Shown: positions 6,504 through 23,501 of the stretch, piece after piece
How the letters are laid out: each line of letters starts with the position of its first letter
Position numbering within the stretch: the first letter of the stretch is position 1
From: Prauserella alba
GTDB taxonomy: Bacteria; Actinomycetota; Actinomycetes; Mycobacteriales; Pseudonocardiaceae
Assembly: GCF_024171735.1 (NCBI RefSeq)
Contig: NZ_JAMTCH010000003.1
Coordinates: 422,841 to 486,840, forward strand
Direction of reading: 5' to 3'
Length of the DNA stretch: 64,000 nt
The notes under the pieces: generated by a model
What the model saw: only the letters and a program-made list of their open reading frames with translations
Told to the model about the DNA's origin: nothing
Databases searched by the model: none
Translations under genes and position numbers: made by a program

Positions 6504-7376
6504 GTGCCTGAGCTTCCCGAGGTCGAGGTCGTGCGTGCCGGTCTCGAACGGCACGTGGCGGGCCGGATCATCGCCTCGGTGGACGTGCTGCACCCGCGGG
6601 CGATCCGCAGGCACGTACCGGGAGCCGACGACTTCGCGGGCAGACTCACCGGCGTGAAGATCACCGCGGCCCGCAGGCGCGGCAAGTATCTGTGGCTCGA
6701 CCTCGCCGACGGCGAGGCCATGCTCGCCCACCTGGGCATGAGCGGTCAGATGCTCGTTCAGCCCGCATCCGCACCCGACGAGAAGCATCTGCGGGTGCGC
6801 GTCCGCTTCGCCGACGACGGCCCCGAGTTGCGGTTCGTCGACCAGCGCACGTTCGGCGGGCTCGCCCTCGACGACCTCGTCGACGCAGACGGCACCGTCG
6901 TGCCGGCGAGCGTCGCCCACATCGGCCGTGACCCGATGGATCCGCGATTCGACCTGGCCGCCGCCGTGGCGGCGCTGCGACGTCGGCGCACGGAGATCAA
7001 ACGCGCGCTGCTCGACCAGACCCTCGTATCCGGCATCGGCAACATCTACGCCGACGAGGCCCTGTGGCGGGCACGCCTCCACGGCACACGCCCCACCGAA
7101 CGGCTCACCCGCGCGCAGGGTGAACTGGTGCTCACCGCCGCCGGCGAGGTGATGGCCGACGCGCTCGGCGCGGGCGGGACCTCGTTCGACGCGCTGTACG
7201 TCAACGTCAACGGCGAGTCGGGTTACTTCGAACGCTCCCTGAACGTCTACGGCAGGGCGGGCGAGCCGTGCCGCCGCTGCGGCGCCGACATCCGCCGCGA
7301 AGCGTTCACCAACCGGTCGTCCTACTTCTGCCCGACCTGCCAGCGCAGGCCCCGCCGGAGCCCCACGGCCCGCTGA
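6504..7376 (+). CDS. mutM: Formamidopyrimidine-DNA glycosylase
   Basis: Base-excision repair enzyme that removes 8-oxoguanine and formamidopyrimidines and nicks the abasic site. The 290-aa protein starts with (V/M)PELPEVE, in which the exposed proline after initiator-methionine removal is the catalytic nucleophile and the glutamates are catalytic. It has the H2TH region ([17 protein letters not shown]) and a C-terminal zinc finger ([11 protein letters not shown], then YFCPTCQRR). The start is GTG 6504. In related genomes the next core genes are acyP and smc; here a ~10-kb block intervenes. Confidence 0.96.
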
Positions 7377-7593: not shown

Positions 7594-8361
7594 TCATTGC
7601 GCGGTGTGCCCGGCGTCGACGGGCAGGGCCGCGCCGGTGACGTAGCTGGCGGCGTCGCTGCACAACCACAGCACGGCAGCGGCGATCTCTTCCGGGCGAC
7701 CGAGTCTGCCCAGCGGGACACCGGTAGCGGCGGCTTCCGGATCGAGCTCGCCACCTGCGGCCATACGCTCGACCATCGGGGTGGCGATGGTTCCCGGGCA
7801 CACGGCGTTGGCGCGCACGCCGTGCTTGCCGTACTGCAGTGCGACGCTCCTGGTAGCTCCGATCACTCCGTGCTTGGTCGCGTGGTAAGTGGTGCGTCCG
7901 TCGCCGCCGACGAGGCCGCCGAGCGAGGAGCAGTTGACGATCGCGCCGGAGCCTTGCTCACGCATCTGCCCCAGCTCGTGTTTCATCGATGCCCAGACGC
8001 CGCGGAGGTTGACGTCGACGATCCGGTCGAATGCCTCGGCGGTCTCGTCGGCGGAGTCGACCGGCGGGAGCATGATGCCGGCGTTGTTGAACGCCATGTC
8101 CAGGCTGCCGAACGCGTCCACGGTGGCGCGCACGGCAGTTGCGACCTGCTGCTCGTCTGTGACGTCGCAGGGCACGGCCAGAGCTGCCAGGCCTCGCGTG
8201 GCGAGCTCGTCGGCGAGTGTCCGGGCTGCGCCGGCGTCGACGTCGATGATCGCGACGCTCGCGCCGGACTCGGCGAAGGCGCGGACGGTGGCCTCGCCCA
8301 TCCCGGCGCTGCCGCCGGTGACAACTGCCGTCCGGCCGGTGAAGTCGTAGGTGACATCCAT
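7594..8361 (-). CDS. Short-chain dehydrogenase/reductase
   Basis: Classical SDR of 255 aa. The NAD(P)-binding TGGSAGMG motif lies at residues 15-22, NNAG appears as AFNNAGIML, and the catalytic Ser region (NCSSLGGLVG) precedes Tyr159-x3-Lys163 (YHATK). An acidic residue after the second strand (IIDVDAG) suggests NAD(H) preference. ATG 8361 has a GGGAAG ribosome-binding site. It is the last gene of a minus-strand run (MFS, two cyclophilin-like proteins, SDR) with short gaps. Substrate unknown; a quinone, keto-ester or aldehyde reductase role fits the neighbours but is inference. Confidence 0.88.
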   Translation of the reverse strand: MDVTYDFTGRTAVVTGGSAGMGEATVRAFAESGASVAIIDVDAGAARTLADELATRGLAALAVPCDVTDEQQVATAVRATVDAFGSLDMAFNNAGIMLPPVDSADETAEAFDRIVDVNLRGVWASMKHELGQMREQGSGAIVNCSSLGGLVGGDGRTTYHATKHGVIGATRSVALQYGKHGVRANAVCPGTIATPMVERMAAGGELDPEAAATGVPLGRLGRPEEIAAAVLWLCSDAASYVTGAALPVDAGHTAQ

Positions 8362-8388
8362 GTTTTCTTCCCTTCGGTGCGTACTGCC

Positions 8389-8982
8389 TCAGTCCACGAT
8401 CTCGACTGTGGTCTCCCGGCCCTCGAACTCGGAGAGTTCTTCTTCGGTGGCGTCGTAGGTCCCGAGGTGTAGCGTCTGGTCGGAGTGGCCGAAGCCCGAG
8501 GCGTCGTAGAAGAACCCGATGTTGCCCCAGGGGGTGTAGTAGATGAGGTCGCCGTCCTCGGGATCGGAGCCCGCCGTGCCGTCCCGGTCGAGTTCGCGGG
8601 GCAGGTAGGCGATCTTCTCGCTGTTGTCGAACTCCTCGAGCTCGAGCGTGGTCGGCAGCATGGACAGGAAATCGCGCGTGGCGGTGGTGTCCTCGCCGAT
8701 GGTCACATCGACGACGGCGTCGCCGGCGCGGAACCTGACGACCGTGCCGACGACGCTCTGCTCCGCGTCGTTGGATGCCCCGGCGGCAGGACCGGATGTG
8801 GTCGCATCCCGAGTTCCGGACATCTGCGGCGACGGGTCGTCCTCGGTGCCCTCGTCGGACGATGGCGTGCTGCATCCGACGAGGATCATCGCGATCACCG
8901 CCGTCGCCGCGGCCGTGATCTTGGGTCGTCGAATCGCCAGGAGCCTTCCGCGTCCGACCTGGGCGGTTCGCGCCGCGGCCAC
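8389..8982 (-). CDS. Lipoprotein with cyclophilin-like fold domain
   Basis: Seen: a 197-aa protein with a basic N-terminus, a hydrophobic segment and a lipobox ending in Cys (AMILVGCST), then a Ser/Asp/Glu-rich linker. A C-terminal domain of about 120 residues carries the markers of the small cyclophilin-like family: the RDFLSMLPTTLELEEF block, EKIAYLPREL, and the GDLIYYTPWGNIGFFYDA core. It is a close relative of the next upstream gene but exported and lipid-anchored. The GTG 8982 start lies 3 bases after that gene's stop, implying translational coupling; the ribosome-binding site is weak. The family is structurally related to peptidyl-prolyl isomerases but its activity is unproven. Confidence 0.8.
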   Translation of the reverse strand: MAAARTAQVGRGRLLAIRRPKITAAATAVIAMILVGCSTPSSDEGTEDDPSPQMSGTRDATTSGPAAGASNDAEQSVVGTVVRFRAGDAVVDVTIGEDTTATRDFLSMLPTTLELEEFDNSEKIAYLPRELDRDGTAGSDPEDGDLIYYTPWGNIGFFYDASGFGHSDQTLHLGTYDATEEELSEFEGRETTVEIVD

Positions 8983-8985
8983 GGG

Positions 8986-9339
8986 CTACGCCACGGCCGC
9001 GATCGTCACGGCCTGGTCACTCTCCGTGCCTGGAAGGGCGTCGAGAGGGTCGTCGATGTGCCCGAGGACGACGAGGCCGGCCGCGTGGGGAAAGTCGCGG
9101 TAGAAGATGGCGAGGTTGCCCCAGGGGGCGTAGTCGGCGATGTCCCCGATCGTCGCGGCGGCCCCGCTGGGAGAACCCGCGGTGCGCAGCGTGCGCGGCA
9201 GGTCGGCGATCTTCTCGGTGTCGTGGAAGTCGGCGAGGGCGACCGTCAGGGGCAGCATCGCCGCCAAGTCGCGTGCTGCGGTGCTGTCGTTCAGTGTCCC
9301 GGTCAGGGTCGCGGTGCCGGTGGTGATTCGGATGTCCAT
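8986..9339 (-). CDS. Cytoplasmic cyclophilin-like fold protein
   Basis: A 117-aa protein without signal peptide, consisting only of the cyclophilin-like domain: RDLAAMLPLTVALADF, EKIADLPRTL, then DIADYAPWGNLAIFYRDF. These match the blocks of the adjacent lipoprotein. ATG 9339 is chosen because GAAAGG lies upstream and the domain starts directly; the frame is open further 5' into the gap after the MFS gene. The family is often found next to cupins, CMD proteins, SDRs and aldo/keto reductases. The biochemical role is unknown. Confidence 0.82.
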   Translation of the reverse strand: MDIRITTGTATLTGTLNDSTAARDLAAMLPLTVALADFHDTEKIADLPRTLRTAGSPSGAAATIGDIADYAPWGNLAIFYRDFPHAAGLVVLGHIDDPLDALPGTESDQAVTIAAVA

Positions 9340-9370
9340 GACGTGGGTGCCTTTCGTTGTCTGTGAGGTG

Positions 9371-10615
9371 CTAGGTCCGGCCGCCCTCGGCAACGGTTCG
9401 CGCGTGTCCTCGCACCGAGGCGAGGAGCACGACGACCGCGGCGAGTACGGCCAGCGCGGCGTAGCCGAGTGAGATGGTCCGGAGGGGCATGCCGGTGGCC
9501 GTGAGGCGTCCCGAGATGAGGCTGGGGACGGCGGCTCCGCCGTAGGAGAAGAGATAGACCGTCGACATCAGCCCTGCGCGCTCGGCCGGGCCGATCCGCT
9601 GCAGGAGGCCGCGCACGGAGCCGGTGAACGCTGCTCCTTGGGCGGCTCCGGCGACGATCCCGCACACGATGACCGCGGTGACGGTTCCGGTGCGCAGGCC
9701 GAGGACGACACCGGCGACGGCGAGGGCGAAGACGACGATGCCGGTTCGCTGCGCGGCGCCCGGATTCAGCCGGCCGGTCAGCGGTCCGCCGACGGCATAG
9801 GGGGCCATGAAGGACGCGAATACGATCCCGGCGACCAGCGTGTTCGTGGTGCCGAGATTCTGGGCCGAGATGGTGGGGCTGAAAGCCTGATAGAAGCCGC
9901 CGAGGGCCCACGTGCCGCAGAACACGGCGATCGCCGCCGGCAGCAGAGGGCGGATCGTGTGCGGCAGGTGCACGCGCGGGCGAAGTGAGTTCAGCGTGCC
10001 GGAGCGGCGAACGACGACCTCGGGGCTTGCCGGCAGTAGCGCGGCGCACACGCCGAGCAGGACCGTCACGGCAAGGTAGGGGACCTGCTCGGGCGCCGGG
10101 CCGTACTCGGCCAGTGCTCCGGTTCCGACCGCACCGAGAGTCAGCCCGATCAGAGGTGAGCCGGCCACGACCGTCGCGGCCAGCCAGCGTGGCCGTTCCG
10201 GGGTGAGGTCGACGATGTAGGCCGCGATGGCAGAGGAGCCGAGGCCACAGGCCAGGCCCTGTAGGGCACGCCCAGTCATGAGGACGCCCAGCCCGGTCAC
10301 GTCGAGCAGCGCCAGTGACCCGGCGGCGGCGAGGCCGACGGCTACGAGGGTGACGGTCCTGCGCCCGAGGTGGTCGGAGAGCCGCCCGAGGACGACGAGA
10401 GCGAGCATGACCGCGACGAAGTACGTCACGGCTGCGATCGAAAGGTCCCCGGTGGTCAGGCCGTCCGCGGCCCGGTAGTGCTCGTAGAGCGGGATCGGGG
10501 CGCCGGAGGCGGCGAACACGACGACCAGCGATGCGGTCGCCGCTGCGAATCCCAGCCGTCGACGGGGCAGGTGCGGGACGCGTCCCGGCGGTGTGTTCGT
10601 GGTGGATCGGGTCAT
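9371..10615 (-). CDS. MFS transporter (drug efflux-like)
   Basis: A 414-aa, about 12-helix major facilitator. Seen: a first helix with ASGAPIPLYEHY, the cytoplasmic loop 2-3 signature VVLGRLSDHLGRRTV (MFS motif A), TGRALQGLACGLGSS, and a second-half motif ending TGRLNPGAAQR. The length and lack of a binding protein fit proton-driven efflux of small hydrophobic compounds. ATG 10615 is followed immediately by the polar N-terminus (TPPGRVPHLPRRRLG). It precedes the cyclophilin-like genes in the same minus-strand operon. Export of a toxic substrate handled by the island is inference. Confidence 0.87.
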   Translation of the reverse strand: MTRSTTNTPPGRVPHLPRRRLGFAAATASLVVVFAASGAPIPLYEHYRAADGLTTGDLSIAAVTYFVAVMLALVVLGRLSDHLGRRTVTLVAVGLAAAGSLALLDVTGLGVLMTGRALQGLACGLGSSAIAAYIVDLTPERPRWLAATVVAGSPLIGLTLGAVGTGALAEYGPAPEQVPYLAVTVLLGVCAALLPASPEVVVRRSGTLNSLRPRVHLPHTIRPLLPAAIAVFCGTWALGGFYQAFSPTISAQNLGTTNTLVAGIVFASFMAPYAVGGPLTGRLNPGAAQRTGIVVFALAVAGVVLGLRTGTVTAVIVCGIVAGAAQGAAFTGSVRGLLQRIGPAERAGLMSTVYLFSYGGAAVPSLISGRLTATGMPLRTISLGYAALAVLAAVVVLLASVRGHARTVAEGGRT

Positions 10616-10718
10616 CGCAGGTTCATCCGTTGGTCGTCCTGGTTTCTCCTCGCCGCGCCTGCCGCCGGAGTGCTGCCGGACTCTCCAACGGCCCCGCCGG
10701 CATGCCGAGGGCGGAGCA

Positions 10719-11089
10719 TCACCAGGGCTGGTTCGCCGGCCCGACGGTGGACTCGTTGACCGTCGGGCCGGCGGGCAGGTTCAGGGCGAACGCCACCACG
10801 TCGGTGATGCGGTCGGGAGAAATTCCGTACTGGTCGCACATCGCTTGCGCACCGTCCGCGGTGTTCCGGTCGGTGATGGTCTACAGCAGCTCGGTGTTGA
10901 CGGCCGTGGGGTAGAGGGTCGCGGTGCGAATGTTCGTCTCCTCCTGGGTCGACTCCATGCGCAGGACCTCCCCATGAAGTCGCGCACGAACCATTCGGTG
11001 CCGCCGTATACGGCACCGGCGGGGTAGGCCTTGAGTCCTGCGACCGACGACAGGCCGATCACATGGCCGGACTGCTGTCGGCGATGCGA
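10719..11089 (-). pseudogene. SDR gene relic, 5' truncated with frameshift and nonsense codon
   Basis: Reading the minus strand gives RRQQSGHVIGLSSVAG, then KAYPAGAVYGGTEWFVRDFMG, the substrate-side half of a classical SDR with the catalytic Tyr region (a Gly-Gly-Thr-Glu stretch replaces YxxxK). A shift of frame near 10975 is needed to continue into EVLRMESTQEETNIRTATLYP. A TAG near 10880 then interrupts before TITDRNTADGAQAMC and a normal end NESTVGPANQPW at 10719. The Rossmann half is absent: the similarity begins right at the 3' end of the CMD gene. An intact SDR lies 2.3 kb away in the same operon, so this is probably a dead paralogue. Confidence 0.75.
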
Positions 11090-11425
11090 TCAATCGCCCT
11101 CGCCGAAGACTTCCTTGGCCACGGTCGTCGCACTCATGCCGTTGGGCCAGCCTGCGTAGAACGCGAGGTGCAGGAGAGTTTCCTTGAGTTCTTCTTCCGC
11201 CACACCGTTCCGGCGGGCGAAGTCGAGGTGGAATCGGAGCTGATCCGTCTTTCCCAGCGCGGTCAGCGCTGCGACCGTAACGAGGCTGCGGTCGCGTTTG
11301 GACAGTTCCTCGCGCTCCCAGACCTCGTCGAAGAGGACCTTGTCGGTGTAGTGGACCATCCCGGGCGCGAAGTCGCCGAAGGCGTTCTGTCCACCTGTCC
11401 AACCGGTGCTCTGCTCGTTGCTCAT
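11090..11425 (-). CDS. Carboxymuconolactone decarboxylase (CMD) family protein, cytoplasmic
   Basis: A 111-aa single-domain CMD/AhpD-fold protein. Seen: KRDRSLVTVAALTALG, the RFHLDFARRNGVAEEEL helix and the family box LKETLLHLAFYAGWPNG. It has no CxxC, so it is not an AhpD-type peroxidase; the conserved His in LLHLAFYAGW fits the gamma-carboxymuconolactone decarboxylase branch. ATG 11425 (GGAG upstream) gives the normal length; the longer open frame would add about 120 unrelated residues. It heads the minus-strand operon and diverges from the MmyB-domain gene. Substrate unknown. Confidence 0.85.
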   Translation of the reverse strand: MSNEQSTGWTGGQNAFGDFAPGMVHYTDKVLFDEVWEREELSKRDRSLVTVAALTALGKTDQLRFHLDFARRNGVAEEELKETLLHLAFYAGWPNGMSATTVAKEVFGEGD

Positions 11426-11555
11426 CGCCGCTCCATCCGCGAGTAGCCGTTGGCCTGTTATCCCCCATGTAACCGTCGATTCCGCGTGTGTGGGAGACCT
11501 GGTCGTGAGGGGGTACCAGCAGGGACTGGCACCGTGCTTCGGAGGTGGTCGTACC

Positions 11556-12176
11556 GTGACGGATGTGAGCACGGGTACCGGTGATCGCCGAAATCGCAGT
11601 CGCGGGCAGGACGCGCCCAGGTTGCGGGCCGGTCTGCGTTCCGCACTCGCAGCCGTCGCGGACATGCCGGCGATCGTCGTCAGCAACCAGCTGGACGTCG
11701 TCGCGACGAATGCGCTCGGACGAGCTCTGCTGGCACCGGCACTCGGGGAGGGCCGGTCCAATCTTGCCCGGTTCGTCTTCCTCGACGAGAACACCTCGAC
11801 GGCGTTCTACCCCGAGTGGGACCGGATAGCCGACGAGCACGTCGATTGGCTGCGTGCCACAGCAGCGCAAGCCCGCCGTGACCGGGCGTTGCACCGGTTG
11901 ATCGGCGAGCTCTCGACGGTCAGCCCCCCGTTCCGGACCCGCTGGTCCTCGGAGCGGCTCCGCGCTTGCTACCCGCCGAGGGTGACTGTCGATCATCCGC
12001 TGGTCGGTGAGCTGGACTTGATCCGGGAGGACCTCATGCCGGTCGCCGACCCCGTGCTGACGCTCAGGGTTTACACCGCCGAGCCAGGGACGGCGACAGC
12101 CGAGCGATTGAGCATCCTCGCCAGCTGGATCCAGGACTCCGCACTCGACGACCGGGCAGACACCAAGCCTGCGTGA
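11556..12176 (+). CDS. MmyB-type ligand-binding domain protein lacking the XRE DNA-binding domain
   Basis: A 206-aa protein that aligns by eye with the C-terminal two-thirds of MmyB-like XRE regulators, including the full-length one at 16333-17214. Shared blocks are ADMPAIVVSNQLDVVATNALG, NLARFVFLDENT and LIGELSTVSPPFRTRW. The usual N-terminal HTH of about 70-90 residues is absent; the 131-bp gap to the divergent CMD start has no room for it. GTG 11556 has GGAGGTGG 7 bases upstream, so the short form looks translated. Either a truncated regulator or a stand-alone ligand sensor acting with another DNA-binding protein (inference). Confidence 0.75.
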   Translation: MTDVSTGTGDRRNRSRGQDAPRLRAGLRSALAAVADMPAIVVSNQLDVVATNALGRALLAPALGEGRSNLARFVFLDENTSTAFYPEWDRIADEHVDWLRATAAQARRDRALHRLIGELSTVSPPFRTRWSSERLRACYPPRVTVDHPLVGELDLIREDLMPVADPVLTLRVYTAEPGTATAERLSILASWIQDSALDDRADTKPA

Positions 12177-12219
12177 TCGACTCCGTCAAGGAGAGAACTC
12201 CCGAAAGGAAGTGTCCGTT

Positions 12220-12621
12220 ATGAAGATCATCGATCCTGCTCCGACGGCCAAGAACCCGCCGGAGCAGTTCACCGGAGACGTCTGGGTGGACATGATCGCC
12301 AGCCCACAGGACGAGGGCCAGGCGATGATTGTCTCCAGGGTCCGGTTTGCCCCCGGGGCTCGCACCGCCTGGCACTCCCACGCCCGCGGGCAGACCCTGC
12401 ACGTCACGTCCGGGGTGGCGTGGGTGCAGTCCCGCGGCAGCGAGAAGGTCGAACTGCACCCCGGTCAGACGGCGTACTGCCCGCCCGGTGAGGAGCACTG
12501 GCACGGCGCGGCCCCGGATCGATTCATGGAGCACCTCGCCATGCTGGAGAACGGTGACGATCCCGCCACGACGACCACCTGGCTCGAGCACGTGTCCGAC
12601 GCCGAGTACAACGCCGGCTGA
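12220..12621 (+). CDS. Cytoplasmic cupin-domain protein
   Basis: A 133-aa single-cupin protein. Motif 1 reads RTAWHSHARGQTLHVTSG, so the metal triad is H-x-H with Gln where many cupins have Glu; motif 2 is CPPGEEHWHGAAP. It belongs to the quercetin dioxygenase-like/CMD-associated cupin group. ATG 12220 is preferred over GTG 12211 because GAAAGGAAG lies 8 bases before the ATG and abuts the GTG. It follows the MmyB-domain gene by 43 bases in the same operon. A metal-dependent isomerase, lyase or dioxygenase role is possible; the substrate is unknown. Confidence 0.87.
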   Translation: MKIIDPAPTAKNPPEQFTGDVWVDMIASPQDEGQAMIVSRVRFAPGARTAWHSHARGQTLHVTSGVAWVQSRGSEKVELHPGQTAYCPPGEEHWHGAAPDRFMEHLAMLENGDDPATTTTWLEHVSDAEYNAG

Positions 12622-12650
12622 GCTGTTTCCGGTCCGGCACGACGCGCGAC

Positions 12651-12700
12651 CGACGATCGCCCCGGGAACCCGTGCGCACGGGTTCCCGGGGCGATCGTCG
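12651..12700. repeat. 50-bp perfect palindrome between the two cupin genes
   Basis: Positions 12651-12674 and 12677-12700 are perfect 24-base reverse complements around CG, making all 50 bases self-complementary; the left arm begins CGACGATCGCCCCGGGAACC. It lies 29 bases after the cupin stop inside the apparent operon. No U-tract follows. It may be a transcript-stabilising or partial-termination hairpin, or a palindromic mobile element. Confidence 0.8.
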
Positions 12701-12856
12701 CATGTCGGCGGCATGCTCGCGAACCACCGTGCACACTCCTGGGCCGATGGCAGGCCCTGTCAGTACCCCCGTTGAGCAGGATCTGTCGAAGACGCGCCGG
12801 CTCCGGTGTCATGGGAGACCTCACCGCACCCACCCCCCCATTACTTCGGAGCGATC

Positions 12857-13411
12857 ATGACGAAGACCGTCCGCAGGACCGCGCCGGGCATCGCCGCGGC
12901 GACCCTCGCCGGCGCGCTGCTCACCGGCTGCGCGTCGGACGAGAACCCCACCGCCGACGGACAGCGCTCGGGAACGCCGGGAGCATCCGCTGCCTCGGAG
13001 GAGCAGGGCATCACGGTCTCTCGGGCCGGCGAGCGCGAGCGCACCACCGGTGATGCCGAGACGTTCACCGGGGACGTGGAGATCGTGCCCCTCTACGAAC
13101 CGAACGACGCCTCAACCGGCGGCGCCGGCCGGGTGACGTTCCAGCCCGGTGCGCGCACCGCCTGGCACTCCCATCCCGCAGGGCAACGGCTGATAGTCAC
13201 CGAGGGTACTGGGTGGATCCAGCAGGAGGGTCAGGACCGGATCACCGTGTCCCAAGGCGACGTCGTGTGGTTCGAGCCGGGCGTGAAGCACTGGCACGGA
13301 GCCACTGCAGGCGAGGCGATGACGCACATCGCCGTGCAGGACACCATCGACGACTCCAACGCGGAATGGATGGAGCACGTGACCGACGAGCAGTACCTCG
13401 ACCAGGCCTGA
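12857..13411 (+). CDS. Cupin-domain lipoprotein
   Basis: A 184-aa protein with twin N-terminal basic residues, a hydrophobic h-region and lipobox LLTGC (Cys about residue 22), a polar linker, then one cupin domain. Motif 1 is RTAWHSHPAGQRLIVTEG and motif 2 FEPGVKHWHGATAGEAM, closely parallel to the cytoplasmic cupin upstream. ATG 12857 has GGAGCG upstream. Export and lipid anchoring to the outer face of the membrane is predicted from the lipobox. It is the extracytoplasmic counterpart of gene 12220-12621 and precedes a CMD lipoprotein by 18 bases. Confidence 0.85.
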   Translation: MTKTVRRTAPGIAAATLAGALLTGCASDENPTADGQRSGTPGASAASEEQGITVSRAGERERTTGDAETFTGDVEIVPLYEPNDASTGGAGRVTFQPGARTAWHSHPAGQRLIVTEGTGWIQQEGQDRITVSQGDVVWFEPGVKHWHGATAGEAMTHIAVQDTIDDSNAEWMEHVTDEQYLDQA

Positions 13412-13429
13412 CCCGAAAGGAACGCTCGG

Positions 13430-14233
13430 ATGACGAACCGATCTTCTCGCCGTGTCAGCCACCTCGCTCGTCCTGCGGTGGCATTGATCGCAAGCGGGGC
13501 ACTTCTGGTCGGCTGCACCAGCCAACAGTCCGCCGATGCGCCGGAACCGGATGTACGCGCGACCGCCGTCGAAGACGTTGCCCCGGCGCTGGCGCAGTAC
13601 GACGCCGAACAAGTGCGGGAACTGTGGGCCGATGACAGTCTCTCGGCCCGTGACCGTGGCCTGGTGACGATCGCGGTGCTGGTTGCCAGCGGACAGACCA
13701 CGGACCTCGGCTTCTACGTCAACAAGGCTCTCGACGACGGGGTGAGCCCGGCCGAGGTTTCCGAGACCATCACCCACCTGGGGTTCTACAGTGGATGGCA
13801 GAACGCCATGGCCGCCGTCGACCCGGTCGCCGCGATCTTCGCAGAGCGCGGTATCGACGAGTCCGAACTGCCCGCGGCCGACCCCGACCTGCTGAACCAG
13901 GACGAGGCTGCCGAGGCCACCCGGGAAGCCGAAGTTCAGGAGCAGTACGGGAACGTCTCGCAAGGGCTGGTCGATGACACCGACTCCGTGGTGTTCGACG
14001 ACCTGTGGTTGCGTCCCGGTCTGGAATCGCGCGATCGCAGCCTCGTCACGGTCGTTGCCCTGGTATCGACCGCGCAGGCCGACCAGGTCCCTTACCACCT
14101 CGGCCGCGCGATGGACAACGGTCTGACCGCGGACGAGGTCGACCCGCTGCTGAACCATCTGGCCTACTTCACGGGCTGGCCGAAGGTGTTCACGGCCATG
14201 CCCGCAGTCACCGAGACCCTCGAATCCCGGTGA
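13430..14233 (+). CDS. Lipoprotein with two tandem CMD domains
   Basis: A 267-aa protein with basic N-terminus, hydrophobic segment and lipobox LLVGC (Cys about residue 29). Two CMD repeats follow. The first (about residues 45-135) has ARDRGLVTIAVLVASGQT and ITHLGFYSGWQNA; the second (about 165-262) has SRDRSLVTVVALVSTAQA and LLNHLAYFTGWPKV. Each keeps the conserved His before the aromatic-Gly-Trp box; neither has CxxC. The two-domain form resembles a covalent dimer of the cytoplasmic CMD at 11090-11425. ATG 13430 follows GAAAGGAACG. Probably a surface-tethered enzyme working with the cupin lipoprotein; activity unproven. Confidence 0.86.
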   Translation: MTNRSSRRVSHLARPAVALIASGALLVGCTSQQSADAPEPDVRATAVEDVAPALAQYDAEQVRELWADDSLSARDRGLVTIAVLVASGQTTDLGFYVNKALDDGVSPAEVSETITHLGFYSGWQNAMAAVDPVAAIFAERGIDESELPAADPDLLNQDEAAEATREAEVQEQYGNVSQGLVDDTDSVVFDDLWLRPGLESRDRSLVTVVALVSTAQADQVPYHLGRAMDNGLTADEVDPLLNHLAYFTGWPKVFTAMPAVTETLESR

Positions 14234-14309
14234 CGGAGACATGCCTCCACAGGATGGTCGCACTGGTCGGCGACCGTGCCGCTGACAGAAGATGAGGAGT
14301 GACACCACG

Positions 14310-14978
14310 ATGGCGCGCATCGTCGTCTTCGGAGCCACCGGAGGGGTCGGCTCCCACCTCGTCGGCGAGCTGAGTGCTCGCGGGGCCAGTGTCGTCGCGG
14401 TCCACCGCCGCCCCGAACAGGCCGACGGGCTCCGCACGCAAGGTGCTGAGCCCGTTCAGCTCGACATCGCCGACGAGATCCGCTCGGGCGTGCCCGAGCG
14501 GATCGCCCGGGTCCTGCAAGGGGCGGACGTGGTCGTCTACACAGCCGGGGCGAGCAGCGCCCCGACCGACATCGCGCGCGTGGTCGACGGCGAAGGCGTC
14601 GCGGTCGTCGCGCGAGCGGCCGAAACCGCTGGCGCGCACCGGTTCCTGCTTGTTTCGGCGTTCCCCGAAGCGTGGCGTGACCAGGGGATGCCGAAGGATT
14701 TCGAGGAGTACATGAAGATCAAGAAGCGTGCCGACGTCGCCCTCGCCGCGACGAGTCTGGACTGGGTCATCGTCCGCCCGGGCACGCTGACCAGCGGTGC
14801 CCGCACCGGGCAGGTGACCCTCGGGCCTGCGGTCGACTACGGCGACGTGACCCGGGCCGACGTTGCCGCCGTGCTGGCCGAACTCGCGCACCGAGACGAC
14901 CTCGCTCACGAGATCCTCGAACTCACCGGGGGAGCCGCCCCGATCGCGGACGCGGTTGACGCCGCAGCCGGCAAGTGA
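14310..14978 (+). CDS. NAD(P)-binding NmrA/SDR-like protein
   Basis: An atypical SDR (NmrA-like or YwnB-like) of 222 aa. Seen: the N-terminal dinucleotide motif VVFGATGGVGSHLV, then HRRPEQADGL after the second strand (basic residues favouring NADPH), VVVYTAGASS, and a C-terminal IVRPGTLTSG block. It lacks the classical YxxxK in a recognisable place. ATG 14310 has GATGAGGAG 8-10 bases upstream; ATG 14292 overlaps that site and is rejected. It continues the plus-strand operon after the CMD lipoprotein (gap 76 bp). A quinone or NADPH-sensing reductase role is inference. Confidence 0.85.
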   Translation: MARIVVFGATGGVGSHLVGELSARGASVVAVHRRPEQADGLRTQGAEPVQLDIADEIRSGVPERIARVLQGADVVVYTAGASSAPTDIARVVDGEGVAVVARAAETAGAHRFLLVSAFPEAWRDQGMPKDFEEYMKIKKRADVALAATSLDWVIVRPGTLTSGARTGQVTLGPAVDYGDVTRADVAAVLAELAHRDDLAHEILELTGGAAPIADAVDAAAGK

Positions 14979-15306
14979 AGGGGACCACGCTGCCGCTCTC
15001 GCCGATACCTCGTCGCCGATCGCCCATGGTCGGCAGCGCGTGGGAGCCTCGTGGCAGGCGGTAGGCAGCCCCGGGTGAGGGGTGGTACCGGCAGGGCCTC
15101 CCGGCACGTGGAGTCCCAGCTTAACGTGGGGATCGCGATAGTCGTCCTCGACGTCGACGCGCTCGCCGGATTCGACCGGGGCCGTCCCGTGCCAGGGGAG
15201 GCATCTCATTCCTACACGGGGTGACCGGCTGCCCGGCACCCCTCAACCACTACCGAACTGCGCTGACGGCGATCAGCATTCACCGATGGAAAGAGAGCAA
15301 GAACTC
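14979..15306. other. 328-bp gap before the aldo/keto reductase
   Basis: No convincing gene on either strand. It ends with a purine-rich GAAAGAGAG stretch serving as the ribosome-binding site of the next gene. The plus-strand operon may have an internal promoter here. Confidence 0.5.
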
Positions 15307-16161
15307 ATGATCCTCGACGAGAACCACACCCTGTCCAACGGTGTCGCGATTCCCAAACTGGGGCTGGGGACCTGGTTCATCGACGACGACAAGGCCGCTC
15401 AGGCGGTCCGCGATGCCGTCGAGATCGGCTACCGCAACATCGATACCGCTCAGGCATACGGCAACGAGCGCGGTGTCGGCGAGGGTGTCGCCACCGCCGG
15501 CGTGCCACGCCGGGACCTGTTCGTCTCGAGCAAGCTAGCCGCCGAGATCAAGGACTACGACGACGCGGCTGCCGCCATCGACGGATCCTTGGCAACGATG
15601 GGCCTGGACTACATCGACCTGATGCTCGTCCACAGTCCGCAGCCGTGGGACGACTTCCGTGGTGGGGACTACGCCGAGGGCAATCGTGCGGCCTGGCGCG
15701 CTCTGGAGGACGCTTACAACGCGGGCAAGCTCCGTGCCATCGGAGTGTCCAACTTCCGGGAACAGGATCTGGCCAACGTCATCGAGGGCGGCACGGTCGT
15801 CCCGCACGTCAACCAGCTCCTCGTCCACGCCGGCAACACCCCGACCGAACTCCTCGCCTACTGCGAGAGCAAGGACGTCCTCGTGGAGGCGTACTCACCG
15901 ATCGCACACGGCGAGATCATGGACAACGCGGACATCCGAGCGATGGCGGAAAAATACGGAGTCACCGTCCCGCAGCTGTGCATCCGCTACACCCTGCAGT
16001 TGGGCACGGTGTCGCTGCCGAAGACGGCGAACCCGGAGCACATGCGTGCGAACGCACAGGTCGATTTCTCGATCTCGGACGCCGACATGGTCACCCTGCA
16101 GAACCTGCACGACCAGGACTACGGCGATGCCAGCGTGTTCCCCGTCTACAGCGGTAAGTGA
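15307..16161 (+). CDS. Aldo/keto reductase
   Basis: A 284-aa NADPH-dependent (beta/alpha)8 reductase. The AKR tetrad is visible: Asp46 and Tyr51 (NIDTAQAYGNE), Lys76 (SSKLAAE) and His109 (LMLVHSPQPW). The C-terminal cofactor segment SLPKTANPEHM replaces the commoner IPKS pattern. ATG 15307 is preferred for spacing to GAAAGAGAG; ATG 15286 would add seven residues. It is the last gene of the plus-strand half of the island and converges on the XRE-MmyB regulator. Probably reduces a carbonyl or quinone compound; substrate unknown. Confidence 0.92.
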   Translation: MILDENHTLSNGVAIPKLGLGTWFIDDDKAAQAVRDAVEIGYRNIDTAQAYGNERGVGEGVATAGVPRRDLFVSSKLAAEIKDYDDAAAAIDGSLATMGLDYIDLMLVHSPQPWDDFRGGDYAEGNRAAWRALEDAYNAGKLRAIGVSNFREQDLANVIEGGTVVPHVNQLLVHAGNTPTELLAYCESKDVLVEAYSPIAHGEIMDNADIRAMAEKYGVTVPQLCIRYTLQLGTVSLPKTANPEHMRANAQVDFSISDADMVTLQNLHDQDYGDASVFPVYSGK

Positions 16162-16205: not shown

Positions 16206-16245
16206 GGTCCCGAGTACGGGCGAATCGTCACCTGTACTCGGGACC
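16206..16245. terminator. Hairpin between convergent AKR and XRE regulator
   Basis: GGTCCCGAGTAC (16206-16217) and GTACTCGGGACC (16234-16245) form a perfect 12-bp stem with a 16-nt loop, 45 bases after the AKR stop. There is no U-tract. Its position between converging genes suggests a bidirectional, U-less terminator. Confidence 0.65.
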
Positions 16246-16332: not shown

Positions 16333-17214
16333 TCACCGCGACGAGGGGGCTTCGGACGCGAGCGGCCGCTGGTCGGGACCGAAGGTCAGCTCGGCCAGCC
16401 GACGCATTTTCCCCTCCGAAGGGGTGTTCGGCTCGGCGCTGTAGGCCGTGAGCGTCAGGCCGCGCTGGGCGGGCAGCTCGAGTGCGTCGATGCTCAACCG
16501 CAGGTCGCCGACCGCGGGGTGGCGGAAGTCCTTGTAGCCGCTCTGATGCAGTCGCACGTCGTGCTTGGCCCACAGCGTCCGGAACTGCTGCGATCGCGTT
16601 GACAGTTCGCCGACCAGCTCGGTGAGTTCCTCGTTGGACGGGTCGCGTCCGACCTCGGTGTGCAGCAGTGCCACGGCGGTGTCGGCCGCCGTCTGCCAGT
16701 CCGGGTAGAGTCGGTGTGCGCCCTCGTCGAGGAAGCAGAACCGGGCCAGGTTGACCGGCCGCTGCGGACTCACGAACGCCTCCGAGTAGAGCATCTGACC
16801 CAGTGCGTTGATCGCCAGCACGTCGAGGCGGCCGTTGCGGATGAATGCGGGCACTCCTGTCATCCCGTCGAGCAGGCGCTGCAGGCTTGCCGAGACCTGG
16901 CCGCGCTTCCTGCGCGTCGATCTCGGCGCGGGACCTGCGGCACGGGCGAGGTTGAACAGGTGGTCGCGCTCGGCGTCGTCGAGCTGCAGCGCCCGGACCA
17001 GGGCGTCTAGGACGCTGTCGGAAACGCCGGCCAAGCCGCCGCGCTCGAGTCGGGTGTAGTACTCGACGCTGACCCCGGCGAGCAGCGCGACCTCCTCGCG
17101 GCGTAGACCTGGGACGCGGCGGATGCCGCCGAAGTCCGGCAACCCGGTGTCCTCCGGGCGCAGCTTCGCCCGACGCGTGACCAGGAACTCCCGGATCTCG
17201 GCTCGATTGTCCAT
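16333..17214 (-). CDS. XRE-family regulator with MmyB ligand-binding domain
   Basis: A 293-aa full-length member of the family. The N-terminal HTH (about residues 10-70) shows VPGLRREEVALLAGVSVEYY followed by TRLERG. The MmyB-like domain follows (GVPAFIRNGRLDVLAINALG, NLARFCFLDEG, ELVGELSTRSQQFRTLW, DLRLSIDALELPAQ). ATG 17214 is chosen because the family starts DNRAEIREFLVTRR; the frame is open upstream. Known: these regulators commonly neighbour SDR and AKR genes and control them in response to an unknown, possibly fatty-acid-like ligand. It is the likely DNA-binding regulator of this island (inference). Confidence 0.9.
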   Translation of the reverse strand: MDNRAEIREFLVTRRAKLRPEDTGLPDFGGIRRVPGLRREEVALLAGVSVEYYTRLERGGLAGVSDSVLDALVRALQLDDAERDHLFNLARAAGPAPRSTRRKRGQVSASLQRLLDGMTGVPAFIRNGRLDVLAINALGQMLYSEAFVSPQRPVNLARFCFLDEGAHRLYPDWQTAADTAVALLHTEVGRDPSNEELTELVGELSTRSQQFRTLWAKHDVRLHQSGYKDFRHPAVGDLRLSIDALELPAQRGLTLTAYSAEPNTPSEGKMRRLAELTFGPDQRPLASEAPSSR

Positions 17215-17424
17215 GGTTCCAACCGTAATCGGGCTCGCGGACGCCAGGCAGGTCCCAGCAGTGCCTGTCACCGCACCGGGTTCCCGGGTGGGCCGGTTCT
17301 GTGACAGGCATCCGCGGCGGAGCGCTCGCCGGCCGGTCGTCGAACGCTTCGCGCCGTGCGCTCCGAGCGCAGGCCCGGCCGGAGTTCCACGTCGCTGAGC
17401 GCGGCCCGAGGTGGGACTGTGCGA

Positions 17425-18015
17425 CTACTGGCTTGGCGTCGTGGAGCCGCTGCCGGAACTCGTGGTGTTCGAGGTGGGCTCCGGCGACGCGCTCGACGAG
17501 GTACTCGAGCTTGTCGAGCTTGGTGGCGGCGAGCTCGTTGTCGCGCTGCTCGAGGTCGGGCTCTCGCTGCTGGTCGGTTCCGGGTCCGGCTTGTCCGTGG
17601 GTCGCGGATTCGGGTTGTCCGGTCCGTCGTCGCGCGAGGACGGCTGCGGGTCGTCGGTCGTGGTGATCAGCGTCGTCGTGGGCGTGCCGTCGGGGCCGAT
17701 GCTGACCTTGGTGCTGGTCGTCGACGTCGGCTTCGTCGAGGCGGGAACGGGTTTGCCGTCGACCATTTCGGTCGTCGCACCGGGCTCGGAGCTGCCGGGC
17801 CGGGCCGTGGTGCTGTCGCTGCCCGTGTTCTCCACCTGGGAGCTGCCGTCGCCGTCGGCGGTGGTTTGGTCCCCTCCGCCGGTCGTGACCTGGGCGAGTG
17901 CCCCGAAGGCGGTGGCCAGCACGAGCCCGCTCGCGGCCAGTGCGAGGTAGCCGGTGCGCTGCCAGCGTCCGGACGACTCGCGCGGGGGTGCGGTCTCGTC
18001 GTGCGAGGGGGCCAT
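17425..18015 (-). CDS. Membrane-anchored Ser/Thr/Pro-rich protein
   Basis: A 196-aa protein of unknown function. Seen: a short polar cytoplasmic N-terminus, one hydrophobic segment at about residues 25-42 (YLALAASGLVLATAFGALA), then about 150 residues of low-complexity Ser/Thr/Pro/Asp-rich sequence with runs of Ser-Thr ending STTPSQ. No enzymatic domain. The topology suggests an extended, perhaps glycosylated, extracytoplasmic stalk or surface protein, cytoplasmic end first. ATG 18015. It is divergent from acyP. Codon use looks native (third-position GC). Confidence 0.7.
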   Translation of the reverse strand: MAPSHDETAPPRESSGRWQRTGYLALAASGLVLATAFGALAQVTTGGGDQTTADGDGSSQVENTGSDSTTARPGSSEPGATTEMVDGKPVPASTKPTSTTSTKVSIGPDGTPTTTLITTTDDPQPSSRDDGPDNPNPRPTDKPDPEPTSSESPTSSSATTSSPPPSSTSSSTSSSASPEPTSNTTSSGSGSTTPSQ

Positions 18016-22552: not shown

Positions 22553-23194
22553 TCAGGTGTCACGGCGTGCGAAGACGACGGCTCCCGGCACGTCCTCGTC
22601 GGGCCGCAGGAGCAGCTCGGCGTCGATCGTGAAACCGGCGTCGCGGAGGAGTCCCGAGACCGTGTCCGGCCTGCGGCGGTGGCTGTCGACGTTGATCGGG
22701 CGTCCCGTGTAGCCCTCGGACGTGTGCCGCGTTTCGTCGCCGACGTGGAAGCCGATCAGCACCGGGCCACCGGGCCGCACCACTCGGCGGAACTCGGCGA
22801 ACACGCCGGGCAGGGCGTGGTCGGGCACGTGGATGATCGACCAGAACGCGAGCAGCCCCGCGACGGCACCGTCGGCGAGGTCGAGCGCGGTCATCGAGCC
22901 GACCTCGAAGCGAAGACCGGGATAGGTGCGCCGGGCGAGGGCGACCATCTCGGGGGAGAGGTCGATGCCGAACGCGTCCACCCCGGCGCGGTGGAGGTGG
23001 TCGGTGACGTAGCCCGGCCCGCAGCCGACGTCCGCGACCGGGCCGCTGCCCACCGCACGCACGGACTCGGCGAACACCGCCAGGCTCGCCCGCAGGTGCG
23101 GCATCTCGTCGAGTAGTCCGCGCACCTTCTCGGCGTATCCGGGCGCATCCGTGTCGTACGAGGAGCGGGTGTCGGACAGCCAGGTGTCGGCCAT
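22553..23194 (-). CDS. Class I SAM-dependent methyltransferase
   Basis: A 213-aa methyltransferase of the Methyltransf_11/25 type. SAM motif I is PVADVGCGPGYVTDHL (about residues 53-68), with FGIDLSPEMVALAR after the second strand and a later FRRVVRPGGPVLIGFHVG strand. The N-terminus (SYDTDAPGYAEKVRGLLDE) is the usual helical cap. ATG 23194; the frame is open further upstream only through the minisatellite. It converges on smc. Its substrate, probably a small molecule, cannot be told from sequence. Confidence 0.88.
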   Translation of the reverse strand: MADTWLSDTRSSYDTDAPGYAEKVRGLLDEMPHLRASLAVFAESVRAVGSGPVADVGCGPGYVTDHLHRAGVDAFGIDLSPEMVALARRTYPGLRFEVGSMTALDLADGAVAGLLAFWSIIHVPDHALPGVFAEFRRVVRPGGPVLIGFHVGDETRHTSEGYTGRPINVDSHRRRPDTVSGLLRDAGFTIDAELLLRPDEDVPGAVVFARRDT

Positions 23195-23251
23195 GGGTGA
23201 ACAGTAGCCGCTCCGGCCGCCGCCCGTGCCCGAACACGGCCCGCCACCTGC

Positions 23252-23415
23252 CCGAGGACACCGGACCCGAGGACGCCGGATCCGAGGACGCCGGATCCGA
23301 GGACGCCGGATCCGAGGACGCCGGATCCGAGGACGCCGGATCCGAGGACGCCGGATCCACGGATATCGCGTCGGCGGACACCGGGTCCACGGATACCGGA
23401 TCGTCGGATCCGGGG
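23252..23415. repeat. 15-bp minisatellite between methyltransferase and symporter genes
   Basis: Six perfect consecutive copies of CCGAGGACGCCGGAT occupy 23267-23356, with degenerate copies on each side (from 23252 and to about 23415). The unit is a multiple of three, so frames stay open on both strands (for example a Ser-Glu-Asp-Ala-Gly repeat on the plus strand), but none has domain content. It fills most of the 307-bp gap 23195-23501. Confidence 0.9.
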
Positions 23416-23501
23416 CCAGGGACGCCGGGTCCGCCAACGGGGGAGAGCAGGCGGACGATCCGCTCGTCCGCCGGCCCTCCCACTGCTGTGCGCGATCGGT
23501 C

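Follow-up and report, generated by a model that had tools for sequence, protein, structure and literature searches.

An island of Prauserella alba with signal-less and lipobox-bearing copies of cupin, CMD and cyclophilin-like proteins and a MmyB-type upstream element

A stretch of 64,000 nucleotides from Prauserella alba (the window) holds an island of about 10 kb in which three enzyme families, the cupins, the CMD proteins and a cyclophilin-like family, each occur once without a signal and once with a lipobox (hereafter the inner and outer copies). The original prediction, made from the sequence of the window, had described these pairs; its gene coordinates and families agree with Pfam and NCBIfam, and a rule-based scan of N-termini finds a signal-less and a lipobox form in each family, as it had said. 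The cyclophilin-like genes are neighbours on the reverse strand, the lipoprotein at 8389-8982 (lipobox LVGC, 88.8 bits to PF18050) and the signal-less protein at 8986-9339 (107.8 bits); both exceed the gathering score of 22.7 for this model (Cyclophil_like2). The inner CMD protein (11090-11425, reverse strand) has one stretch matching PF02627 and the outer one (13430-14233, forward strand, lipobox LVGC) has two, so the reading of single-domain inner and two-domain outer forms stands. The cupin genes are both on the forward strand, the cytoplasmic copy starting at 12211 or 12220 and ending at 12621, the lipoprotein at 12857-13411 (lipobox LTGC). All three lipoboxes follow a basic n-region (K/R) and a hydrophobic stretch, whereas the inner copies show neither a lipobox nor a Tat signal in the same scan. 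It is probable from these motifs that the three outer proteins are lipidated and anchored to the outside of the membrane.

Both cupins match Cupin_2 and score above the cut-off of 140 for the NCBIfam (R)-mandelonitrile lyase model NF049940, at 166.5 and 170.6 bits, and both carry the motifs HxHxxxQ and HWH, which supply the metal ligands in mandelonitrile lyase-type cupins. The outer cupin matches PDB entries 4bif, 8oz8 and 4uxa (phmmer E-values from 5e-43 to 7e-41), named cupin 2 proteins in the record, which we take to be mandelonitrile lyases; the island protein differs in its added lipobox. A cyanohydrin lyase activity of the island cupins is putative. The double-CMD lipoprotein aligns with PDB 4g9q, deposited as "4-carboxymuconolactone decarboxylase," over residues 34-266 (E = 1.7e-65). 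Identity of either CMD protein with PcaC was rejected, as they score 73.8 and 87.7 against a TIGR02425 cut-off of 155.7. AhpD-type CMD peroxidases use a CxxC redox pair. The inner CMD protein has no Cys at all, and the only Cys of the outer one is that of the lipobox, so Cys-pair peroxidase chemistry is excluded and an AhpD identity was rejected as well.

Inner and outer copies share 40.4% identity over 104 residues (cyclophilin-like), 43.4% over 113 (cupin) and 41.9% over 93 aligned residues (CMD), and because these values reach just 40-43% the pairs are to be seen as old paralogues. The original prediction had read them as a systematic duplication, in which a cytoplasmic pathway was copied as a set and moved to the cell surface, and the adjoining pairs in three families with such similar identities are what that history would leave behind. 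The trees speak against it. Approximately unbiased (AU) tests reject a single clade of inner and outer copies in all three families under the model used (p-AU 7.9e-44 for the cupins, 1.7e-49 for CMD, 1.0e-5 for the cyclophilin-like proteins), and the outer copies have relatives in Pseudomonadota. Both CMD domains of the outer protein, taken with those of Nigerium massiliense and of another genome of the class (G400; our G and L numbers denote genomes and loci), fall in Pseudomonadota-only company (support 97/96 for domain 1 and 100/99 for domain 2). The outer cupins belong to a clade of 13 rows (94/99) with Pseudomonadota cupins, cytoplasmic ones included, within which a nested clade of 10 rows (99/98) contains all exported cupins; the inner cupin sits in a clade of eight actinobacterial cytoplasmic cupins (100/100). 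The outer cyclophilin-like protein belongs to a clade of 14 rows (97/98), actinobacterial apart from four Hyphomicrobiales, two of which have a signal by rule, and the inner one is placed, weakly (87/64), beside Streptomyces-type lipoproteins. These trees rest on uneven sampling. They give the inner and outer sets two separate origins, the outer set apparently sharing a lineage with proteins of Pseudomonadota that are mostly exported and the inner set grouping with actinobacterial proteins, and they leave duplication of the set as an extremely improbable explanation. The original observation is real, conserved and correctly described; its origin is wrongly explained.

Plasmid records matching the double-CMD protein number 225 (in 134 the match covers 80% or more of the query) and those matching the cyclophilin-like protein 209; the commonest names among them are Pseudomonadota, with Streptomyces and Bacillota also present. 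From the 40 double-CMD rows listed, eight loci were inspected, along with seven cyclophilin-like rows. Six of the eight double-CMD loci hold all three families, the other two (L165 and L167) CMD only. Judged by the N-terminal rule (by eye for the CMD protein of L168), the CMD protein is exported in 7/8 loci, the cyclophilin-like protein in 6/6 and a cupin in 4/6; L163 and L168 have a cytoplasmic cupin only, L162 a cytoplasmic and an exported one. All three families are exported together in four of the six, each time amid oxidoreductase genes: Escherichia coli p417H-90 (L164), S. meliloti pAK76 (L169), Microvirga pR24_1 (L166) and Celeribacter pP73A (L162). These four resemble the island in the three families, the double-CMD architecture, the signal peptides and the oxidoreductase neighbours, and two of them (L164 and L166) have an annotated MFS gene, as the island does; L169 and the CMD-only L165 have genes annotated as paoA/paoC, for an aldehyde oxidoreductase. 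They differ from the island in that all four carry LysR-type regulators, that Pseudomonadota signals are mostly of Sec/Tat type (by rule, the CMD protein of L164 has a lipobox-like site, as do the cyclophilin-like proteins from L162 and L163), and that each Pseudomonadota locus opened has a single CMD gene with no inner partner. Because the exported trio occurs in several Pseudomonadota plasmids, the surface set of the island looks like the Gram-positive version of a periplasmic neighbourhood that already exists, and an exported set is not new in itself. It is the inner/outer build of the island, and its control, that are uncommon. In the open-access literature we found no paper on the neighbourhood or its regulator; the portions of PMC5817063 and PMC7464077 available to us deal with other CMD genes.

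The other genes of the island are, on the reverse strand, an SDR oxidoreductase (7594-8361; PF13561/PF00106) and an MFS transporter (9371-10615; PF07690) and, on the forward strand, an NAD(P)-binding NmrA-like protein (14292-14978; PF13460) and an aldo/keto reductase (AKR; 15286-16161; PF00248) that is DkgA-like in that DkgA is its best NCBIfam model, with a score under the cut-off. An SDR-like gene remnant with stops and frame changes lies at about 10612-11062 on the reverse strand. Its likeness to SDR was judged by eye from a three-frame reading, in which apparent SDR fragments appear in two frames interrupted by stops; its longest frame matched no Pfam family. The cupin genes are separated by a perfect 50-bp palindrome (12651-12700), which may form a hairpin that divides the units, ending the first ahead of the outer one. 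Two shorter perfect inverted repeats are present, at 10734-10773 upstream of the MFS gene and at 16206-16245 between the AKR gene and the gene of an XRE-type regulator described below.

Most of the island recurs in Nigerium massiliense (Propionibacteriaceae), one of four loci with a cyclophilin-like lipoprotein obtained in one scan of genome contigs. The Nigerium locus (L034) holds genes for AKR, NmrA, the double-CMD lipoprotein, the cupin lipoprotein, a helix-turn-helix (HTH)-less MLTR protein, CMD, alcohol dehydrogenase (ADH) and MFS, as well as both cyclophilin-like genes and, downstream of the cyclophilin-like lipoprotein, what appears by eye to be an SDR-like N-terminal fragment (10910-11215). 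It shares its gene families and an upstream element with the island and is unlike it in having an intact zinc-type ADH in the slot of the SDR-like remnant, an SDR fragment, partly inverted orientations and no close inner cupin; a 50% identical cupin is encoded outside the Nigerium island on another contig. Nigerium probably belongs to another order than the window's host, and it falls outside the genus as sampled for the window, given that the outer CMD gene is absent from all congeners. Identities are 67% and 70% for the inner and outer cyclophilin-like proteins, 78% and 74% for the inner and outer CMD proteins, 78% for the outer cupin, 72% for NmrA, 81% for AKR and 83% over 350 aa for MFS; with the MLTR protein counted, the island genes range from 64 to 83% identity with ratios of nonsynonymous to synonymous substitution (dN/dS) of 0.18-0.40. 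The grouping is not a chance one, because Nigerium keeps five of the paired genes (two cyclophilin-like, two CMD and the cupin lipoprotein) at 67-78% identity and dN/dS of 0.19-0.40. The lipoprotein forms are not unique to this genome.

Across the 394 genomes of the class (own genome included), the cyclophilin-like lipoprotein is matched in 22 (E up to 1e-6), the cupin in 73 (1e-10) and the double-CMD protein in 21 (1e-14), and within the family in 3/120 and 17/120 genomes for the cyclophilin-like lipoprotein and CMD, respectively. A close full-length double-CMD match among the 21 is confined to the window and G400 (49% identity), other long matches standing at 30-34%. Three loci of the window's own family (L010, L015 and L016) encode double-CMD proteins with Tat signals that belong to another subfamily. 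The inner cyclophilin-like query matched 16 of 296 genomes at 18 places, 16 of them lipoproteins and two signal-less (the window and G225), so the lipoprotein is the usual form in the class and the signal-less one the exception. The signal-less gene adjoins a lipoprotein copy in four loci (the window, Nigerium, G115 and G225; the short open reading frames (ORFs) of L035 and L056 were left out of this tally), and a 100-aa signal-less form in G417 has no visible partner, which counts against pairing as a rule. Of the predicted co-occurrence of inner and outer forms, then, the cyclophilin-like pair in four loci and two pairs in Nigerium hold up, and all three pairs are found together in the window alone among the loci examined.

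Some of these loci resemble halves of the island. G350, from the same order, has the inner-type half (L084 11273-15055: SDR, XRE, CMD, a divergent cupin and AKR) with no CMD or cupin lipoprotein in 18 kb; the cyclophilin-like lipoprotein in that stretch belongs to another subclade. In G400, adjacent genes encode the double-CMD lipoprotein, a cupin bearing a signal and an AKR, with no inner CMD or cupin within 18 kb around the outer copies. Such halves would be expected if the island were a mosaic of two ready-made cassettes under common regulation, acting on different substrates and paired by accident. We consider this unlikely, though a serious contender, because operon-like runs in the window and in Nigerium mix inner and outer genes, the units have an upstream element in common, and inner and outer cyclophilin-like genes are neighbours in four loci.

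Regulation of the island would involve two genes that the original prediction overlooked, as it did the SDR-like remnant and the true borders. One encodes a full-length XRE/MmyB-family regulator (16333-17271, reverse strand; PF17765 at 185.8 bits, with HTH_31) whose likely start is nearer 17214, from where homologues begin aligning. The other (11556-12176, forward strand; PF17765 at 150.5 bits) encodes an MLTR ligand-binding-domain protein without HTH. No HTH was found in this ORF, in its upstream frame or in the Nigerium counterpart (L034 6497-7081), and because the HTH is missing the protein is MLTR-like and not by itself a regulator of the MmyB/MltR family. In all 29 other MLTR loci checked (the best of 71 places listed for 197 genomes) an HTH is present. 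The window and Nigerium proteins are 64% identical with dN/dS of 0.27, a value on which the reading of the ORF as a pseudogene was rejected; it points to a retained, unusual gene. According to the available part of PMC3406030, MmyB/MltR regulators have the PF17765 domain and are often found beside SDR/MDR genes, as in the island, which departs from that description in that one of its two members has no HTH.

A word that the window and Nigerium share in their intergenic regions, written GGGGTACYRGCAGGG, precedes three transcription units of the island, with an exact match at 11510-11524 (forward strand) and single-mismatch matches at 12755-12769 (reverse) and 15082-15096 (forward). Allowing two mismatches, the window has four matches, three of them in the island, where 0.48 are expected in 64 kb, and the Nigerium locus has three (3213, 6444 and 7130; 0.22 expected). 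Since the word was derived from these sites, other loci are needed as a test. In the 29 other MLTR loci, six sites turn up at a limit of one mismatch (0.1 expected) and 12 at a limit of two (1.7 expected), as against none and one, respectively, in 20 control loci. A pattern-free search returned TACCGGCAG/GTACCGGCA as the top 9-letter words (one mismatch), found in 18 of 28 MmyB upstream regions, the best word from each of 15 shuffles reaching 10-14; a motif expression matched 14 of the 28, every one at -49 to -59. These 28 promoters serve related genes and are partly dependent. In its own genome the element has eight sites with at most one mismatch, three of them in the island, versus four for the reversed control, so lone sites elsewhere in the genome mean little. 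A scan of the island for sigma-70-like promoters found none. The element may be an operator or a conserved part of a promoter, and it may be identical to, or distinct from, the MmyB "B-boxes" named in the part of PMC3406030 available to us. What is new at this locus is the MmyB-type element before three units of the island and in Nigerium, together with the conserved HTH-less MLTR protein.

The island occupies 7377 to about 17424, between fpg/mutM, which ends at 7376, and a hypothetical gene followed by acyP and smc; this is wider than the span of 7594-16161 in the original prediction. Our sample of the genus comprises six other genomes, none of which has a match to the outer CMD gene, and the fpg-smc locus was compared in five. 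All five show the order fpg, hypothetical gene, acyP, smc with no ORF matching an island protein. Between fpg and the hypothetical ORF lie 33 bp in G116, 37 bp in G095, 850 bp in G033, 1569 bp in G511 and 1710 bp in G067, and the larger gaps contain other ORFs. This site is a possible hot spot for insertion. DNA likeness to the nearest congener ends at 7376 and restarts near 17580. Because the island genes are missing at this site in congeners, the island was most likely acquired horizontally and inserted in the window's lineage; separate loss in the congeners may be an alternative. Elsewhere in the window, at about 22560-23480, a long tandem repeat occupies ORFs on both strands (DPASS / RIRGRR units).

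We favor, at a little better than an even chance, the interpretation of the island as a horizontally acquired, MmyB-regulated cassette that acts against reactive carbonyl compounds or other electrophiles and has an inner and an outer arm. In both phyla the genes around the trio encode mostly NAD(P)H oxidoreductases and often an MFS transporter. Handling of electrophiles or carbonyls is favored because of these oxidoreductase, MFS and aldehyde-oxidoreductase neighbours, the exclusion of Cys-pair chemistry and the metal motif kept in the cupins. In such a cassette the double-CMD, mandelonitrile-lyase-type cupin and cyclophilin-like lipoproteins on the outside of the membrane would encounter the compound first; whatever enters would be reduced or rearranged by the cytoplasmic CMD, cupin and cyclophilin-like proteins along with the SDR, NmrA-like and AKR enzymes, and the MFS pump would export the compound or its product. 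The elements before the three units would place them under the full-length MmyB regulator for co-expression, with the HTH-less MLTR protein binding the same ligand and tuning the response. The substrate of the pump, the division of labor between the arms and the action of the regulator through the element are what we infer in proposing this scheme. A stricter version, a two-compartment relay in which a matched inner/outer trio works on one compound under a two-part MmyB sensor, with the HTH-less protein encoded behind the element titrating the ligand or pairing with the full-length regulator, is a tentative suggestion that we think would probably fail.

Several observations weigh against the electrophile cassette. 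Only two of the three pairs are present in the Nigerium island, whose MFS reading frame (8691-9989) is interrupted in the record, and no inner CMD or cupin copy lies in the 18 kb around the outer genes of G400. No element within two mismatches lies upstream of the full-length regulator, and only 10 of 33 related neighbourhood loci have any site at that threshold. The AlphaFold model of the cyclophilin-like lipoprotein is weak (mean pLDDT 56.8), and detoxification of electrophiles is itself read from neighbouring genes and from the habits of the families. A role in catabolism or biosynthesis, such as turnover of aromatic compounds or secondary metabolites, rather than in stress defense would accommodate the MFS gene, the links that the available part of PMC3406030 draws from MmyB regulators to genes for antibiotics and fatty acids, and a fold match of the weak cyclophilin-like model to the Pictet-Spenglerase KslB (E = 0.004; this match and another to TM1367, E = 8.5e-5, serve as leads). 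We hold it to be improbable, as synthases, ligases and oxygenases are absent from the ten Pfam-searched proteins and the regulators, and both CMD proteins fall under the PcaC cut-off.

The island bears on three poorly understood families at once. Their occurrence together suggests that the trio forms an exported unit in Pseudomonadota as well as in Actinomycetota, and because it is exported in both phyla it probably encounters its substrate outside the cytoplasm. The island offers a compact and testable system in which to look for that substrate. For control by the MmyB family it contributes a candidate upstream element and a partner without HTH.

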